Below are positions 14,606 through 32,461 of a stretch of DNA of 37,178 bases, piece by piece (within the stretch, counting starts at the first letter, position 1; every line of letters starts with the position of its first letter). The stretch is from an uncultured Eubacteriales bacterium (lineage in GTDB: Bacteria; Bacillota; Clostridia; Christensenellales; Borkfalkiaceae). The DNA is taken from contig CADBUU010000115.1 of NCBI GenBank assembly GCA_902797945.1, forward strand, positions 1 through 37,178, given 5' to 3'. The notes under the pieces were generated by a model. It was given only the letters and a program-made list of their open reading frames with translations. It did not search any database and was not told the origin of the DNA. A program made the position numbers and the translations under genes.

Positions 14606-15550
14606 TTATTTAATATCCTGTTCGCCGAACACCGCTTTCATAAGATCTGCCGAAGCGTCGTATCCCGCCTGTTTCAAGCGGTATTTTCTCGCCGCCGTTT
14701 CCAAAACTACGGGAATATTTCTTCCCGGCGATACGGGAACGACTATTTTAAGTTTATTTATACCGAGAACGTCTTCGTAATTTTCTTCGTAGCCAATTCT
14801 ATCGTATGTATTTCCTTCCGCCCAAGGCGAAAGTTCTGCGATAATATCCACCGTCTTTTCAGGTCTTATAGCGCCGGGGCCGAACATCTGCTGAACGTTG
14901 ATGATTCCAATTCCTCTTATTTCCATAAAATACCGTATTTTTTCCGGAGATTTGCCAAATATCTGGTCGTTTTTATTTTTCAGAATAACCGAATCGTCCG
15001 CAACGAGCCTATGCCCTCTGTTGACGAGTTCGAGCGCTATTTCGCTCTTTCCGACTCCCGACCTTCCAATTATAAGTATTCCTACGCCGAAAACGTCTAC
15101 CAAGACGCCGTGAACGACTTTCGTCGGCGCTAAAATATCGTTTTGAAATATCGTTAATTCGTTGATAAGAGTTGTTGTGACCATATCCGAACGAAAGAGA
15201 GGGCATTTATACTTTTCCGCATATTTACGCAAATTATCCGAAACGTCAAGCCCCCTTGCGAAAATCATACAGGGAATATCTCTCGAAAAAAGATTTTCGA
15301 GATTTTCGTTCATAGCGGTTTTCGGCGCGGAACGGATATACTCGTATTCTGCATTTCCTATAACCTGAACCCTCTTGTGGTCGAAATGTTTAAAATAACC
15401 CGTAAGTTGAAGACCGGGACGGGAAATACTTATAGTTTGGAGCGAAACTTCTCCTCTCCCCTCGTATTCGACTTCGAGGTTGAGCGCCTTGGCGAAATCC
15501 TTGACGCTTATGACGGCAATATTGTCCGCCGATTGATTTTTACTTTGCAT
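14606..15550 (-). CDS. hprK: HPr kinase/phosphorylase
   Basis: Phosphorylates Ser46 of HPr in the PTS and reverses it, the central sensor of carbon catabolite control in Gram-positives. The 314-residue protein shows the N-terminal domain, the conserved H147 in VVHGVLVDV, Walker A GRSGVGKS (162-169), DDSVIL with the catalytic acidic pair, and the HprK signature IRGIGIINVQQMFG. AAGGAG lies ten bases before the ATG, and the gene overlaps the uvrC stop by 11 bp. Its presence implies HPr-Ser46-P/CcpA control in this organism, though no PTS gene is in the window. Confidence 0.96.
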   Translation of the reverse strand: MQSKNQSADNIAVISVKDFAKALNLEVEYEGRGEVSLQTISISRPGLQLTGYFKHFDHKRVQVIGNAEYEYIRSAPKTAMNENLENLFSRDIPCMIFARGLDVSDNLRKYAEKYKCPLFRSDMVTTTLINELTIFQNDILAPTKVVHGVLVDVFGVGILIIGRSGVGKSEIALELVNRGHRLVADDSVILKNKNDQIFGKSPEKIRYFMEIRGIGIINVQQMFGPGAIRPEKTVDIIAELSPWAEGNTYDRIGYEENYEDVLGINKLKIVVPVSPGRNIPVVLETAARKYRLKQAGYDASADLMKAVFGEQDIK

Positions 15551-17360
15551 CTTCGAAATACTCCTTTATTTTTATCGCTTGAGCCCTTCCGACTCCGTCT
15601 GTTTCGGCAAGTTCGTCTACGCTTGCCCTCTTGATATTCTCAACGCTCCCGAATTTGTCGAAAAGCGCTTTTCTTCTCTTTTTACCTATTCCGTCTATCT
15701 CGTTTAACACCGAAGCGAGATTTCTTTTAGCGTGCGTAGCCCTGTGATAGGTTATTGCGAATCTGTGCGATTCGTCCCTTATTCTTTGAAGCGTCCGAAG
15801 AGTAAAATCTCTCCTCGGCAAAACTATCGGCTCCAACGAATTCTCGGTAAAAATCTCCTCGTTTTGTTTAGCGAGGGAAATAAGGTCGATATTTCTTCCG
15901 TATGCGGAAATGACCTCGCTTACGGCGGACAACTGCCCTTTACCTCCGTCGATGACGATAAGGTCGGGTTGAGGAAATTTATCTTCCTCTTCTCCACCAA
16001 GTTTATCCATTCTTCTTTTTAAGACTTCCTGTAAACAAGCGAAATCGTCCGATCCTTCGACCGTCTTTATTTTAAATCTCCTGTAAGAGTTCTTGTCGGG
16101 TTCTCCGTCGATAAACACGACCATAGAGCCGACTTTATCAACTCCGCTTATATGCGAAATATCGTAACATTCCATTCTCTTAGGATATTTTTTAAGACCG
16201 AGAACTTCTTTTAATCTCTTGCACGCCTTGACGGTCATATCGTCTTTATGGCGAATTCTGTCGACTTCTTTTTCGAGGAAATCCTCGGCGTTTTTCTTCG
16301 CCATTTCGCAAAGTTGGCGTTTTACTCCCCTTTCGGGCAAATAAATTCTGACGTTTTTTGAAAACTGACTTTTGAAATACCCGACTATTGCGTCGGTTTC
16401 TCCAACGTCTTCCGAAACGATTATCTCGTCGGGTGCTTCGGTTTCCTGCGTATAATATTGAGTAATAAACGAATACAACCTTTCGGAGTTTGACAAAGAA
16501 GCGTCCTCGAATGCGAAATTTCTTCCACCCTGCATTCTTCCGCCCCTCGTATAGAGCATATTTACCGAACTGAAAACGCCGTTCGTAGCTGCGGCAATAA
16601 CGTCTATATCCACGAATTTATTGAGCGCGGTTATTCTTTTTAGCTTGATTTTTTCAAGCATTTTGAGTTTGTCTCGATAAGACATAGCGAGTTCAAACTC
16701 CTCGTTTTGAGCGAGTTTTAACATTTTTTCGGTCAATATTTCTTCGACGCCGTCGTCGTTGCCCGACAAAAAATCAACGGCTTTAACAACTCTCTCGCCA
16801 TAGTCTTTCTTGCTTTCAAGCCCGGCGCAAGGCGCCGAACATCTCTTTATATGATAATTAAGGCAAGGTTTTCTCGGCTTATTATCGTCGATTACCACCG
16901 AACACGGTCGAAGCCCGAAAGCGCCGTTGACTATCTCCAAAGTATCTTTAGCGTTGACTCCTCCCATAAAAGGACCGAAATATTTGCTTCCGTCTTTTTT
17001 TATCTTCCTCGTAACCGTAAACGCAGGAAAATTTTCCTTTAAGTTCACCCTGATATAAGGATAAGTCTTGTCGTCCTTTAACAATATATTATAATGCGGT
17101 TTATGCTTTTTGATAAGATTGTTTTCGAGTGATAAAGCGTCGATTTCCGACTGTGTGATTATATAGTAAAAGTCGGCGATATTCGAAACCATTGCGGCAA
17201 CTTTCTCGGGTTTTTTATTCGAGTAGAAATATTGCTTGACCCGATTTTTAAGAATTTTCGCCTTTCCGACGTATATTATCTGTCCGTCCTTATTCAGCAT
17301 AACGTATACGCCGGGATTTTCGGGCAACATTTTAATTTTCTCTTCTAAAATCTCGTTCAT
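15540..17360 (-). CDS. uvrC: Excinuclease ABC subunit C
   Basis: Dual-incision endonuclease of nucleotide excision repair; acts with UvrA and UvrB on damaged DNA. The 606-residue protein has the usual order: GIY-YIG nuclease domain (residues 16-90, PGVYVM and IIYVGKA), a UVR helical motif near 210-240 (KLAQNEEFELAMSYRDKLKMLEKI), an RNase H-like second nuclease domain (CYDISHISGVDKVGSMVVFIDG, LIVIDGGKGQLSA), and a C-terminal helix-hairpin-helix pair ([20 protein letters not shown]). The start codon overlaps the cca stop (ATGA) and no strong ribosome site is visible, indicating coupling. Confidence 0.97.
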   Translation of the reverse strand: MNEILEEKIKMLPENPGVYVMLNKDGQIIYVGKAKILKNRVKQYFYSNKKPEKVAAMVSNIADFYYIITQSEIDALSLENNLIKKHKPHYNILLKDDKTYPYIRVNLKENFPAFTVTRKIKKDGSKYFGPFMGGVNAKDTLEIVNGAFGLRPCSVVIDDNKPRKPCLNYHIKRCSAPCAGLESKKDYGERVVKAVDFLSGNDDGVEEILTEKMLKLAQNEEFELAMSYRDKLKMLEKIKLKRITALNKFVDIDVIAAATNGVFSSVNMLYTRGGRMQGGRNFAFEDASLSNSERLYSFITQYYTQETEAPDEIIVSEDVGETDAIVGYFKSQFSKNVRIYLPERGVKRQLCEMAKKNAEDFLEKEVDRIRHKDDMTVKACKRLKEVLGLKKYPKRMECYDISHISGVDKVGSMVVFIDGEPDKNSYRRFKIKTVEGSDDFACLQEVLKRRMDKLGGEEEDKFPQPDLIVIDGGKGQLSAVSEVISAYGRNIDLISLAKQNEEIFTENSLEPIVLPRRDFTLRTLQRIRDESHRFAITYHRATHAKRNLASVLNEIDGIGKKRRKALFDKFGSVENIKRASVDELAETDGVGRAQAIKIKEYFEDAK

Positions 17361-18709
17361 AAGTTTTTTATTCTCTTTTTTGCCGATTCGAGTAAAATTT
17401 CCCGTTCATTTATGAGATTGCCGCAAACCACGTCGTCGAGTATTCTGTCTAATGCCATACCTATCGACTTACCTTCATATCCCAAGCCGAGCAGATCGTC
17501 GCCGTTTAATTTTAAATCGGACAGACGATAGCAATCCCCCCTCGCTATAATTTCTTCCGCAAGTTTTTTTACTTTAAGAGTCTTTTGCATCTCGGCGACG
17601 GCTTTGTCCGTTCCCTGAGCGTAGCCGTCGGCAAGTTTTAAGGAGATAATATCGAAAAATGTTTGCTCTCCGAATTTACGAAGTCTTTTCTTGATTGTAA
17701 AATCGTCGGGAGTAATCGGTATATCGTGATATTTAACGAGCATTACAACCTCGTTAATCAACCTATTCGGGGCTTTAAGTCTTTTTAAAACCCTCTCCGT
17801 CGTTATCGCCGACTTCTCGGCGTGTCCGTAAAAATGCCCCTCTCCGTTTTTAACGAAAAAAGTTTCGGGTTTACCGACGTCGTGCAAAAAAGCCGCTATT
17901 TTAAGTCTCGGAATATTATCGATTTTTGCCGTCGCCTTGACTATATGCGTATAAACGTCAAAACTGTGCCAACTGCTCCTTTGTTCGAATTTATAACATT
18001 TTTCAAGTTCGGGAACGACCGTAAAAATCACGTTTGAAAACTCCGTCAATACTCTTTCCGCATCTTTCCCGGATATAATTTTGACGAGTTCCGAAAAAAC
18101 TCTTTCTACAGATATGGATTTTAACAAATTTTTAAGTTCCGTCAAACTCTTCGCCGTATTCTCTTCGACGAAAAAACCGAGTTCGGAAGAAAACCTGAGC
18201 GCTCTTAAAATACGCAAAGCGTCTTCCGAAAACCTCTCTTTCGGATCTCCCACAGTTCTTAATATCTTATTTTTTATATCCGATAAACCGCCGTATAGGT
18301 CGATTATTCCCTCTTCGTCGTTGTAAGCGATAGCGTTTATCGTAAAATCTCTTCTCTTTAAGTCCTCGGACAAAGTCGAAACAAATTCGACTTCGTCCGG
18401 TCTTCTTAAATCGCTGTAACCTTTTTCGGTTCTGAAAGTCGTTATTTCGTAGCCCTTTCCGCCCTTTAAGACGGTTACCGTTCCGTGTTTTAATCCCGTC
18501 GGTATAATCGTATCGCCCTTAAAAACCTCTATTATCTCTTCCGGTCGAGCGGAAGAAGTTATATCGTAATCGTATACGGTTTTCCCTATAAGACTGTCGC
18601 GAACCGCTCCGCCGACGACGTATGCTTTAAATCCGTTATTTTTAAGGGTATTTATTATGTTTTTTACTTCGACAGGTAAAACCACGTCGTTAAACGAACT
18701 ATATCCCAT
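17357..18709 (-). CDS. cca: CCA-adding enzyme / poly(A) polymerase family with HD domain
   Basis: Class II nucleotidyltransferase that builds or repairs the 3' CCA of tRNAs. At 450 residues it shows GGAVRDSLIG and DYDI (metal-binding DxD) at the N-terminus, RRDFTINAIAYN (RRD motif), the EDALRILRALRFSSELGF helix region, and an HD domain (HDVGKPETF, VKYHDIPI), which suggests phosphohydrolase activity. The tRNA-Leu gene at 21845 encodes its own CCA, so this enzyme would serve repair or other tRNAs. It begins six bases after glpK with no good Shine-Dalgarno and overlaps uvrC by 4 bp. Confidence 0.93.
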   Translation of the reverse strand: MGYSSFNDVVLPVEVKNIINTLKNNGFKAYVVGGAVRDSLIGKTVYDYDITSSARPEEIIEVFKGDTIIPTGLKHGTVTVLKGGKGYEITTFRTEKGYSDLRRPDEVEFVSTLSEDLKRRDFTINAIAYNDEEGIIDLYGGLSDIKNKILRTVGDPKERFSEDALRILRALRFSSELGFFVEENTAKSLTELKNLLKSISVERVFSELVKIISGKDAERVLTEFSNVIFTVVPELEKCYKFEQRSSWHSFDVYTHIVKATAKIDNIPRLKIAAFLHDVGKPETFFVKNGEGHFYGHAEKSAITTERVLKRLKAPNRLINEVVMLVKYHDIPITPDDFTIKKRLRKFGEQTFFDIISLKLADGYAQGTDKAVAEMQKTLKVKKLAEEIIARGDCYRLSDLKLNGDDLLGLGYEGKSIGMALDRILDDVVCGNLINEREILLESAKKRIKNL

Positions 18710-18715
18710 TATTTA

Positions 18716-20176
18716 TCAAAGCGCCCTTACTATTGCCTTTTTCCAATTTTCATAATATTCGTCGTATTTTTCATCTCCGTCGGGGCTGAATATTTTTTGT
18801 GTTTTTCTGTATCCTTCGAGGTCGTCGGGACGCATTATACCAAGACCTATTGCGCAGAGATACACGGCTCCGAGCGCCGTGCTTTCCTTTTCGACGGGGC
18901 GATTAATGTCGACTCCTAAAACGTTTGACTGAAATTGCATAAGAAAGTCGTTCGCAGAAGCGCCTCCGTCGCACCTTATTTCGCTTATTTTTATCTTACT
19001 CTCGCTTTCCATAACCAATGAGAGGTCTTTTGCCGAATAAGCCATCGATTCAAGTATCGCCCTTGCGATATGCGCTTTTGTCGAACCTCTCGTAAGTCCG
19101 CAAATCATTCCCCTTGCGTCGCCGTTCCAATAGGGCGCTCCGAGTCCAGTAAACGCGGGTATAAAATACACTCCGCCGTTATCTTCGACCGAAGTTGCGA
19201 GCGGCTCTATCTCCTTTGACCTTTTTATAATGCCGAAAGCGTCCCTGAACCATTGAACGGCGCTTCCGGCGTTAAAGACGCTTCCCTCGAAGGCGTAAAC
19301 CGTTTTATCCGCTATTTTATAAGCGACCGTCGTTACGAGTCCGTTCTTGGATATTATCGGCTTATCTCCGACGTTATATAACATAAATAAGCCCGTTCCG
19401 TAAGTGATTTTACTTAAACCCGTTCTTATACAGCCTTGACCGATGAGCGCGGCTTGTTGATCTCCGGCTATTCCGCAAATCGGAATTTTAGCGCCTGCGT
19501 ATTCAAAATATCCGACTTGTTTATCGCAAGACACGACGGTCGGAAGGCAATTTCTCGGAACGTTGAATATTTCGAGAAGTTGGTCGTCGTAATCCATAGT
19601 ATGGATATTGAAAAGCATCGTCCTTTGAGCGTTGGTAACGTCCGTAACGAAAGCTTTACCGCCCGTGAACTTATATATAAGAAAACTGTCTATCGTTCCG
19701 AAACACACTTCTCCTCTTTTCGCTCTCTCCGCAATTTCGGGAACGTTGTCCATAAGCCACTTCATTTTGCTTGCCGAAAAATAAGCGTCCATGACGAGCC
19801 CCGTTTTTTCTCTGATAATATCGCCGTAAGTCGGCTCTATGGACTTCATAAATTCGGTAGTTCTTCGGCACTGCCAGACAATCGCATTATAGAGGGGTTT
19901 ACCCGTCTTTTTATCCCATGCGATGACCGTTTCTCGCTGATTGGTTATACCTATGCCCTGTATTTGGTCTATACTGTCGGCGCTCTCTATCATTTCAACG
20001 AGCGAAGAAAGAGTTTCGGCGTATATTTCGTTGGCGTTTTCCTCAACGTAAGAGGGTTTAGGATAAATCTGTTTTATAGGCGAAGCCTTTTGAAGAACTA
20101 TTTTCTTTTTTTTGAGATCGTATAAAACCGCTCTCGTCCCGGTAGTTCCTTCGTCAACGGCAATAATATAACTCAT
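18716..20176 (-). CDS. glpK: Glycerol kinase
   Basis: Phosphorylates glycerol to glycerol-3-phosphate with ATP. The 486-residue protein (family about 500) has the FGGY signatures: DEGTTGTRAVLYD at the N-terminus, GITNQRETVIAWD, AGDQQAALIGQGC and TYGTGLFML, and the C-terminal CDGGASANDFLMQFQ. Many Firmicutes GlpKs are activated by HPr-His~P at a histidine in an HFYG-like segment just before the AGDQ motif. Here the corresponding stretch reads EYAG (225-228), without His, so PTS control is probably absent. No glpF or glpO/D gene is nearby. It has a strong promoter and AGGGAG ribosome site, and starts a glpK-cca-uvrC-hprK operon. Confidence 0.96.
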   Translation of the reverse strand: MSYIIAVDEGTTGTRAVLYDLKKKKIVLQKASPIKQIYPKPSYVEENANEIYAETLSSLVEMIESADSIDQIQGIGITNQRETVIAWDKKTGKPLYNAIVWQCRRTTEFMKSIEPTYGDIIREKTGLVMDAYFSASKMKWLMDNVPEIAERAKRGEVCFGTIDSFLIYKFTGGKAFVTDVTNAQRTMLFNIHTMDYDDQLLEIFNVPRNCLPTVVSCDKQVGYFEYAGAKIPICGIAGDQQAALIGQGCIRTGLSKITYGTGLFMLYNVGDKPIISKNGLVTTVAYKIADKTVYAFEGSVFNAGSAVQWFRDAFGIIKRSKEIEPLATSVEDNGGVYFIPAFTGLGAPYWNGDARGMICGLTRGSTKAHIARAILESMAYSAKDLSLVMESESKIKISEIRCDGGASANDFLMQFQSNVLGVDINRPVEKESTALGAVYLCAIGLGIMRPDDLEGYRKTQKIFSPDGDEKYDEYYENWKKAIVRAL

Positions 20177-20206
20177 TTTTTTCTCCCTAATTATTATTCA
20201 ATAAAT

Positions 20207-20235
20207 ATTTTAGTATATTTAATAAAATTTTTCAA
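20207..20235 (-). promoter_or_regulatory. sigma-A promoter of the glpK operon
   Basis: Minus strand: -35 TTGAAA (20230-20235), 17-bp spacer, -10 TAAAAT (20207-20212), about 30 bases before the glpK ATG. Divergent from the murG promoter. Confidence 0.78.
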
Positions 20236-20252
20236 GTTAAAAAGATAAATTT

Positions 20253-20282
20253 TTGTCAATTTTAACTCTTTTTACGCATAAT
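20253..20282 (+). promoter_or_regulatory. sigma-A promoter of murG
   Basis: -35 TTGTCA (20253-20258), 18-bp spacer, -10 CATAAT (20277-20282). The leader is about 12 nt and carries the AGGAGGGGAG ribosome site. Confidence 0.7.
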
Positions 20283-20301
20283 ATAGCGAGGAGGGGAGAA
20301 A

Positions 20302-21353
20302 ATGTCGAAAATAATCTTTACCGGCGGAGGAACTGCCGGACATTACGCGCCGAATTTCGCCGTAATTTCCGCCCTTAAAAACTCTTTTGACGAAATATAT
20401 TATATCGGAAGCAACTTCGGACCCGAAAAACAAGCGGTAAAATCTAAAAACATTCCCTATTTCGGTGTTACAACCGTAAAACTTCTCAGATCTTTGTCTT
20501 TAAAAAACGCAACTATTCCCATTAAACTTTTAAAAGGTATCAAAGATAGTAAAAAAATATTAAGGGAAATTCAGCCAGACGTCGTGTTTTCAAAAGGGGG
20601 ATACGTCGCGCTTCCCGTAGTTATTGCGGCGAGCAATTTAAAAATACCCGTTATAACCCACGAATCGGACGTATCCATCGGACTTGCAAATAAAATCGCA
20701 TGTCGCCGTTCGTCGATGGTTCTGACATCATTCGAGGTTACTTCAAAAAAATAAAAGGAGCGGTTGCCGTCGGCACACCGATACGCCCCGAACTCTTTGA
20801 AAAAAGAGATAAATCTCTTATTATTAAGCAATTCGGACTTGACGAAAACAAAAAGACTTTACTCGTTACGGGAGGAAGTCAAGGTAGCGTCGCAATCAAT
20901 CAGGCGATTGAAAAGATTGCCTATATGCTCGTTAACAGGTATAATATAGTTCACGTCTGCGGAAAAGGTAAACTTATAAAAAGCAAATTTAAGAATTACC
21001 ATACAATGGAATACTGCTCGGAAATGGAAAAACTATATTCGATTGCCGACCTTGCCGTATCGAGAGCGGGCGCAAATACTTTATTCGAACTTATTTCTCT
21101 TAAAATACCCACTCTTGCTATACCTCTACCAAAGGGAAATTCTCGTGGCGACCAAGTTGAAAACGCTTTATATTTTAAAGATAAAGGACTTATAGACCTT
21201 CTTTTTGAAGAAAACGCTTCTCCTCTCGCTCTATACGAAAAAATCATCGAACTCGACGCTAATTCCGAAAGGATAAAGCGTAATTGTATGGAAGTGGACT
21301 ATTCGAAGAATGCGGAAAAAATTGCGGAAATACTAAAAAATTATAGACGTTAA
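20302..21353 (+). CDS. murG: MurG N-acetylglucosaminyltransferase, interrupted by a -1 frameshift
   Basis: Transfers GlcNAc to lipid I to form lipid II at the membrane's inner face. Frame 1 (20302-20754) carries the N-terminal domain with GGGTAGHYAPNFA, FSKGGYVALPVV and THESDVSIGLANKIA. It stops at TAA 20752-20754 straight after a run of seven A. The -1 frame then continues without a gap (KKIKGAVAVGTPIRPELF) through TGGSQGSVAIN, SRAGANTLFELISLKIP and RGDQVENA to 21353. The joined protein would be 350 residues, normal for MurG, and the RGDQ form is the clostridial branch. Either a base was lost in the A-run (mutation or read error) or expression uses slippage. It has its own promoter and a strong ribosome site. 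Confidence 0.9.
20745..20754 (+). other. A7 slippery heptamer followed by UAA in murG
   Basis: A_AAA_AAA at 20745-20751 is in phase as X_XXY_YYZ with respect to the murG start, and the zero-frame stop TAA follows directly. A -1 slip restores the full MurG frame. AAAAGGAG follows at 20753-20760. Confidence 0.75.
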
Positions 21354-21355
21354 TA

Positions 21356-21384
21356 TTGCAAAAAAAGGGAATATATGGTATAAT
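21356..21384 (+). promoter_or_regulatory. sigma-A promoter of the DUF2188 gene
   Basis: -35 TTGCAA (21356-21361), 17-bp spacer, -10 TATAAT (21379-21384). It begins three bases after the murG stop. Confidence 0.8.
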
Positions 21385-21411
21385 ATTCTTGAATTTACAA
21401 AGGAGAAAATT

Positions 21412-21621
21412 ATGGCGATAGGACAGAAATATCACGTTTCGTTAAACGACGACGGTAAATGGCAGGTCAAAGGCGAAAAGGCTGAAAAGGCGTTGAAACT
21501 TTTCGCAACTCAAAAGGAAGCGATCGCATACGCAAAATCTGTTGCGGGAAATCAAGAAGGTAACGTAGTAATTCATAAAACCGATGGAAAAATAAGAAAG
21601 CAGGACTACTCCAAAAAATGA
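21412..21621 (+). CDS. DUF2188 domain protein
   Basis: A 69-residue soluble basic protein matching the DUF2188 pattern: YHVSLNDDGKWQVKGEKAEKALKLFATQKEA, then IAYAKSVA, ending with VVIHKTDGKIRKQ. The family is small, widespread, and has no established function; the two-part beta-alpha-beta shape resembles a small nucleic-acid-binding fold, but that is speculation. AAGGAG stands seven bases before the ATG and the gene has its own promoter. The stop codon overlaps the start of the truncated DUF1294 gene (ATGA). Confidence 0.88.
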   Translation: MAIGQKYHVSLNDDGKWQVKGEKAEKALKLFATQKEAIAYAKSVAGNQEGNVVIHKTDGKIRKQDYSKK

Positions 21622-21844: not shown

Positions 21845-21931
21845 GCGGACATGGCGGAATTGGCAGACGCGTTAGATTCAGGTTCTAATGGGGGCGACTT
21901 CGTGCAGGTTCAAGTCCTGTTGTCCGCACCA
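21845..21931 (+). tRNA. tRNA-Leu (anticodon CAG)
   Basis: An 87-base class II tRNA. The acceptor GCGGACA pairs with TGTCCGC and is followed by encoded ACCA. The anticodon stem TTAGA/TCTAA encloses TTCAGGT with anticodon CAG, reading CUG. The long variable arm GGGGGCGACTTCGTG and the T-arm GCAGG-TTCAAGT-CCTGT complete the structure. It has its own consensus promoter and a terminator 9 bases downstream. Confidence 0.97.
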
Positions 21932-32274: not shown

Positions 32275-32426
32275 ACCTTTTACCTCCTGTTTTTTTCAAG
32301 AAATAAACCCCCGACAGCGCGAAGCAATCGGGGGCATAATTCGAATAAAATTCATTTTACGCTTTGATTACCTCGGCGGGCAGCGCGTTTGCGCTTTAAA
32401 GCCTGCTGTCTTCGGCTATTTAATTC
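32275..32426 (-). ncRNA. L10 ribosomal-protein leader
   Basis: Minus-strand leader from the predicted start (about 32426) to rplJ. The conserved parts of the Firmicutes L10 leader can be read: GCCGAAGACAGCAGG near 32405-32418 and CTGCCCGCCGAGGTAAT near 32365-32380, separated by a GCGC-rich hairpin. L10 or L10(L12)4 binding here represses rplJL. Confidence 0.88.
32301..32334 (-). terminator. attenuator hairpin in the L10 leader
   Basis: Seven-base stem CCCCCGA/TCGGGGG (32308-32314 and 32328-32334) followed on the minus strand by TTTATTT, about 25 bases before rplJ. It fits a transcription attenuator formed when L10 binds the leader. Confidence 0.8.
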
Positions 32427-32432
32427 TTTAAC

Positions 32433-32461
32433 ATTATATCATCAATGATATAACTTGTCAA
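32433..32461 (-). promoter_or_regulatory. consensus promoter of rplJL
   Basis: Minus strand: perfect TTGACA (32456-32461), 17-bp spacer, perfect TATAAT (32433-32438), seven bases from the rplA stop. Confidence 0.93.

Follow-up and report, generated by a model that had tools for sequence, protein, structure and literature searches.

The murG split at an A7 run in an uncultured Eubacteriales bacterium is most probably a non-programmed one-base indel

Background

MurG is, in general, an essential enzyme, and dnaX is a known case of programmed -1 ribosomal frameshifting. Three described systems lie closest to the locus reported here. The programmed -1 sites of the dnaX/IS type (PMC4066793) share with this murG an in-phase A-rich heptamer; a separate value for an A7 heptamer does not appear in the sections covered of that source. 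The A-tract frameshifts of Buchnera and Blochmannia (PMC5574713) are alike in being indels of an A-run in an otherwise conserved gene, and the drift of M.HaeIII (PMC3812077) is alike in that the gene of a needed enzyme has lost one base within an A-run. In addition, a literature search on murG, frameshift and homopolymer returned no slippery murG among the matches listed.

Results and discussion

Position and phase of the murG split

In the window, by which we mean the whole stretch of 37,178 nucleotides analysed, murG lies on the forward strand and starts in the zero frame at ATG 20302, preceded by a ribosome-site-like stretch, GAGGAGGGGAG. The zero-frame, N-terminal part covers 20302-20754 and encodes 150 aa, ending T-S-K-K-stop. 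The frame is lost at an A7 run at 20745-20751, which is followed in the window sequence by TAAAAGGAG and is read as TCA AAA AAA TAA, i.e. in the phase A_AAA_AAA, with the UAA stop at 20752-20754 immediately 3' of the run. On the same strand, the -1 frame stays open over 20694-21353, shows MurG homology from about 20742 and holds the whole remainder of the protein. The original prediction, that murG is split at an in-phase A_AAA_AAA heptamer beside UAA and that the -1 frame supplies the entire missing C-terminal part with nothing lost, was borne out on both counts. Specifically, the N-half matches NF009102 at profile positions 1-149 and TIGR01133 at 5-150, and the C-half matches them at 156-347 and 154-352, respectively; since the halves are collinear and continuous in two MurG profiles, the break costs the frame only and no segment of the family. 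Both MurG domains, PF03033 (108.8 bits) and PF04101 (111.1 bits), are present and collinear, and neither half reaches the TIGR01133 full-length cut-off of 250.25 bits (121 and 112.2 bits) because the frame is broken. As far as the assembly goes, the split is real.

The protein is homologous to the structures 7d1i, 1f0k and 3s2u, and the break falls just ahead of the GTPxRPEL stretch, at which we take the C-terminal domain to open, with domain limits as in E. coli MurG (1F0K). Production of MurG as two independently translated polypeptides, divided close to the domain boundary, would suit this position and an ATG at 20700 in the C-terminal frame, but that ATG lacks an SD sequence, the next ATG, GTG or TTG of the frame (20925) already lies within the domain, and a two-gene murG of this kind was seen in none of the relatives examined, so that we give this arrangement next to no probability.

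Copy number and genomic context

The assembly, from an uncultured bacterium of gut type, comprises 1.55 Mb in 155 contigs and is 92.68% complete. Throughout it, PF03033 was matched once and PF04101 twice. The second PF04101 match, on contig C81, is a 382-aa protein in which the domain is partly covered and which has no PF03033 match; by resemblance, it is presumably a diglucosyl-diacylglycerol-synthase-like enzyme. Being another glycosyltransferase, and one that lacks the N-domain family, it was rejected as a second murG, and the earlier statement that the window holds no other murG can be extended to the assembly on the single match of PF03033. The gene mraY is present on another contig than murG, next to a gene that by eye looks like a Mur ligase; this pair suggests that the genome has the lipid II pathway.

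Around murG, in window positions 15543-21618, lie genes for an FGGY sugar kinase, a CCA-adding-type nucleotidyltransferase and uvrC on the opposite strand, with a gene for a DUF2188 protein following downstream. A tRNA-Leu (cag) gene lies shortly 3' of murG at 21845-21931 (+), and a ribosomal protein L10 leader (Rfam RF00557, 62.1 bits) was located at 32293-32433 (-).

The site in related genomes

A DNA search over 101 genomes gave matches in 44, or 43 without the genome itself. We found that murG was in one frame across the site in all 29 relatives of a first set of loci, two of which (L007 and L031) run off their contigs beyond the site. A further 110 loci, 80 of them named and 30 more, come from genomes that partly overlap those of the first set; of these, 109 read through the site, the exception being the window's own locus. 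Heptamer and split together are thus not conserved in these relatives, and a break at this site is private to this genome among all the sequences read. The nearest relative, G013, with 75% nucleotide identity, has a continuous murG of 1053 bases, one base longer than the 1052 of the window, and at the site reads GCG AAA AAA ATC in frame, so that it also has seven A, in another phase. In a different genus, the murG of locus L222 (genome G272) is unbroken, with A_AAA_AAA standing in phase at this very position. The original prediction had proposed a comparison with close relatives and held that a continuous frame together with a missing A-run would speak against it; the continuous frame was found, but an A-run, in another phase, is present in G013.

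No same-species or near copy was obtained when genome contigs and viral contigs were searched with the C-terminal part. Likewise, in a second contig scan, by alignment, none of the 80 named loci exceeded 52% identity to the query, and none is close enough to date the event.

The C-terminal part, although out of frame, keeps 36 of 38 invariant residues, the other two being conservative V/I swaps, and its dN is far below dS, a ratio that is only rough because dS is saturated. Changes on the window branch and the G013 branch numbered 11 vs 7 in the C-terminal part and 4 vs 2 in the N-terminal part. Decay of the C-terminal part was considered and set aside, as the branch of the window shows no surplus of changes such as prolonged decay would leave.

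Frameshifts in the assembly and in drafts of the family

The conserved coding DNA sampled, for which relatives give coverage, amounts to 89 kb when each strand is counted; it has 84 A/T runs of seven or more, and the break in murG is its only true frameshift. An error-ridden assembly was therefore rejected as a general cause, since with a single frameshift in 89 kb no general homopolymer error rate explains the split; the break, an isolated event, would go back to one error of the consensus, to a variant that is segregating, or to a genuine mutation. A list of adjacent ORFs was too noisy to be used for this purpose. A list guided by relatives gave 23 candidates for the genome itself, all but three of them frame-preserving and mostly antisense shadow ORFs; two of the remaining three were intergenic stretches, leaving only murG to be taken for a frameshift. 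A tblastn version gave three candidates, of which murG was retained, an ArsR-like gene was dropped because the reference ORF was in the wrong frame, and a conserved stretch ahead of a gene was dropped on reading.

Among 301 genomes of the family, MurG was found in 275 at E <= 1e-30, and the 13 in which the match was weak or double were inspected more closely, a selection by which breaks behind a strong single match may be missed. Most of the 13 were explained by contig-end cuts, by two copies or by two match pieces in one frame. Genome G301 carries two MurG copies (L226 and L238), and in G187 one of two copies (L225 and L239) is interrupted at an NN gap. In two other genomes, the only murG copy found is broken at an A-run with a shift of +1: at A9 in G242 (L240, G242:C104) and at A6 in G142 (L241, G142:C72). 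With the window included, sole murG copies broken at A-runs thus number 3 of 275, each at a different place and not all shifted the same way. For the control gene mraY, a match was present in 266 of the 301 genomes; 10 were irregular, most of them at contig ends, and one copy, in G260 (L255/L263, G260:C23), is internally broken, with frame changes that involve no long homopolymer. Broken sole copies of needed genes therefore form a background of roughly 0.4-1% per gene in these drafts, which gives an approximate rate of broken sole copies for draft genomes of this family.

The heptamer and its putative stimulators

A programmed -1 ribosomal frameshift, yielding two MurG products by design, would draw on the in-phase heptamer, the adjoining UAA, the SD-like GAGG at 20734-20737 (+), 7 nt upstream of the run, and a weak predicted stem-loop at 20755-20798 (+), which begins 3 nt past it. 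We examined how special these elements are in a motif sample of the window plus 40 stretches, amounting to 421 kb, about 27% of the genome, with 316 predicted genes. The heptamer at 20745-20751 has the slippery form X_XXY_YYZ, yet 124 A7 runs in this phase occur in the 316 genes, the two remaining phases having 120 and 71, so that A_AAA_AAA is neither rare nor avoided in this genome. Moreover, when an A-run placed as in this gene loses one A, the in-phase heptamer and the UAA arise automatically; because of this automatic origin, neither the phase nor the stop counts as independent evidence, and a slippery heptamer can look designed although it is merely the remnant of a one-base loss.

For the 99 nt 3' of the run, the predicted folding energy is -22.1 kcal/mol (z -1.79, 11 of 200 shuffles equally low), and a repeat fold of the same stretch gave z -1.96 (7 of 200 shuffles). 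Over 60 nt, a fold of this strength is reached at eight of the 124 in-phase sites, counting the target itself; the fold is mildly strong, and the hairpin not unusual among such sites. The corresponding stretch of G013, at -24.6, has z -0.5 and no comparable excess of structure. An SD-like word precedes 18 of the 124 in-phase heptamers, that at 20734-20737 included, and this GAGG is probably just the codons GAG GTT. Fold and GAGG are the sole points in favour of a programmed site, and weak ones. With the split absent from every relative read, and the other murG breaks lying at other places and in the opposite direction, we regard programmed frameshifting in this murG as extremely unlikely.

Origin of the missing base

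What was observed is a split gene in a single copy, relatives in which it is intact, and further breaks at A-runs; we infer that the missing base very probably reflects a non-programmed one-base indel in the A-run, specific to the lineage or to the assembly. One base would have been lost inside the A-run of murG, the phase of which would then turn the following bases into UAA, so that the rest of the gene falls one frame back. We think it likelier that the consensus or assembly is in error, or that a minority of the sampled population carries the variant, than that a null allele is fixed, since murG is the sole copy, mraY is present and the C-half is conserved. The original prediction had allowed two outcomes, of which a one-base loss or assembly error is the one favoured by the continuous relatives, the other A-run breaks and the automatic phase; programmed or transcriptional slippage is left without comparative support.

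The same three observations, the sole copy, the presence of mraY and the conserved C-terminal part, would also suit a seven-A allele that is real and fixed, with enough full-length MurG made through unprogrammed slippage of RNA polymerase or the ribosome. A precedent is M.HaeIII, of which a form with an A deleted in an 8A repeat was active at basal expression in E. coli (PMC3812077). Seven A is short for strong slippage, however, recorded bypass being mostly at 10 A or more according to that source, and frame-restoring transcription errors were not found in Buchnera or E. coli according to PMC5574713. Such a rescue is, in our view, unlikely. Very unlikely is the specific case of a Clostridia lineage, no reduced endosymbiont, with a fixed frameshifted sole murG, in which slippage at A7, with GAGG and hairpin nearby, would throttle cell-wall synthesis by the efficiency of recoding. 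Were a real allele rescued in this way, the supply of an essential cell-wall enzyme would hinge on errors of decoding; and if seven A were the true and common state, leaky rescue would be the interesting remainder.

Comparison with known systems

Unlike the dnaX/IS-type sites (PMC4066793), the murG site is unconserved, lacks convincing stimulators and is split in one genome only. It also differs from the Buchnera and Blochmannia cases (PMC5574713) in that the window has 41% GC, the run is only 7 long and the break is a single case in sampled DNA. For M.HaeIII, activity was measured (PMC3812077), whereas a full-length product of this murG would be hypothetical and its base loss is a probable one; the two are nevertheless alike in that one and the same sequence invites slippage at the level of DNA, RNA and the ribosome.
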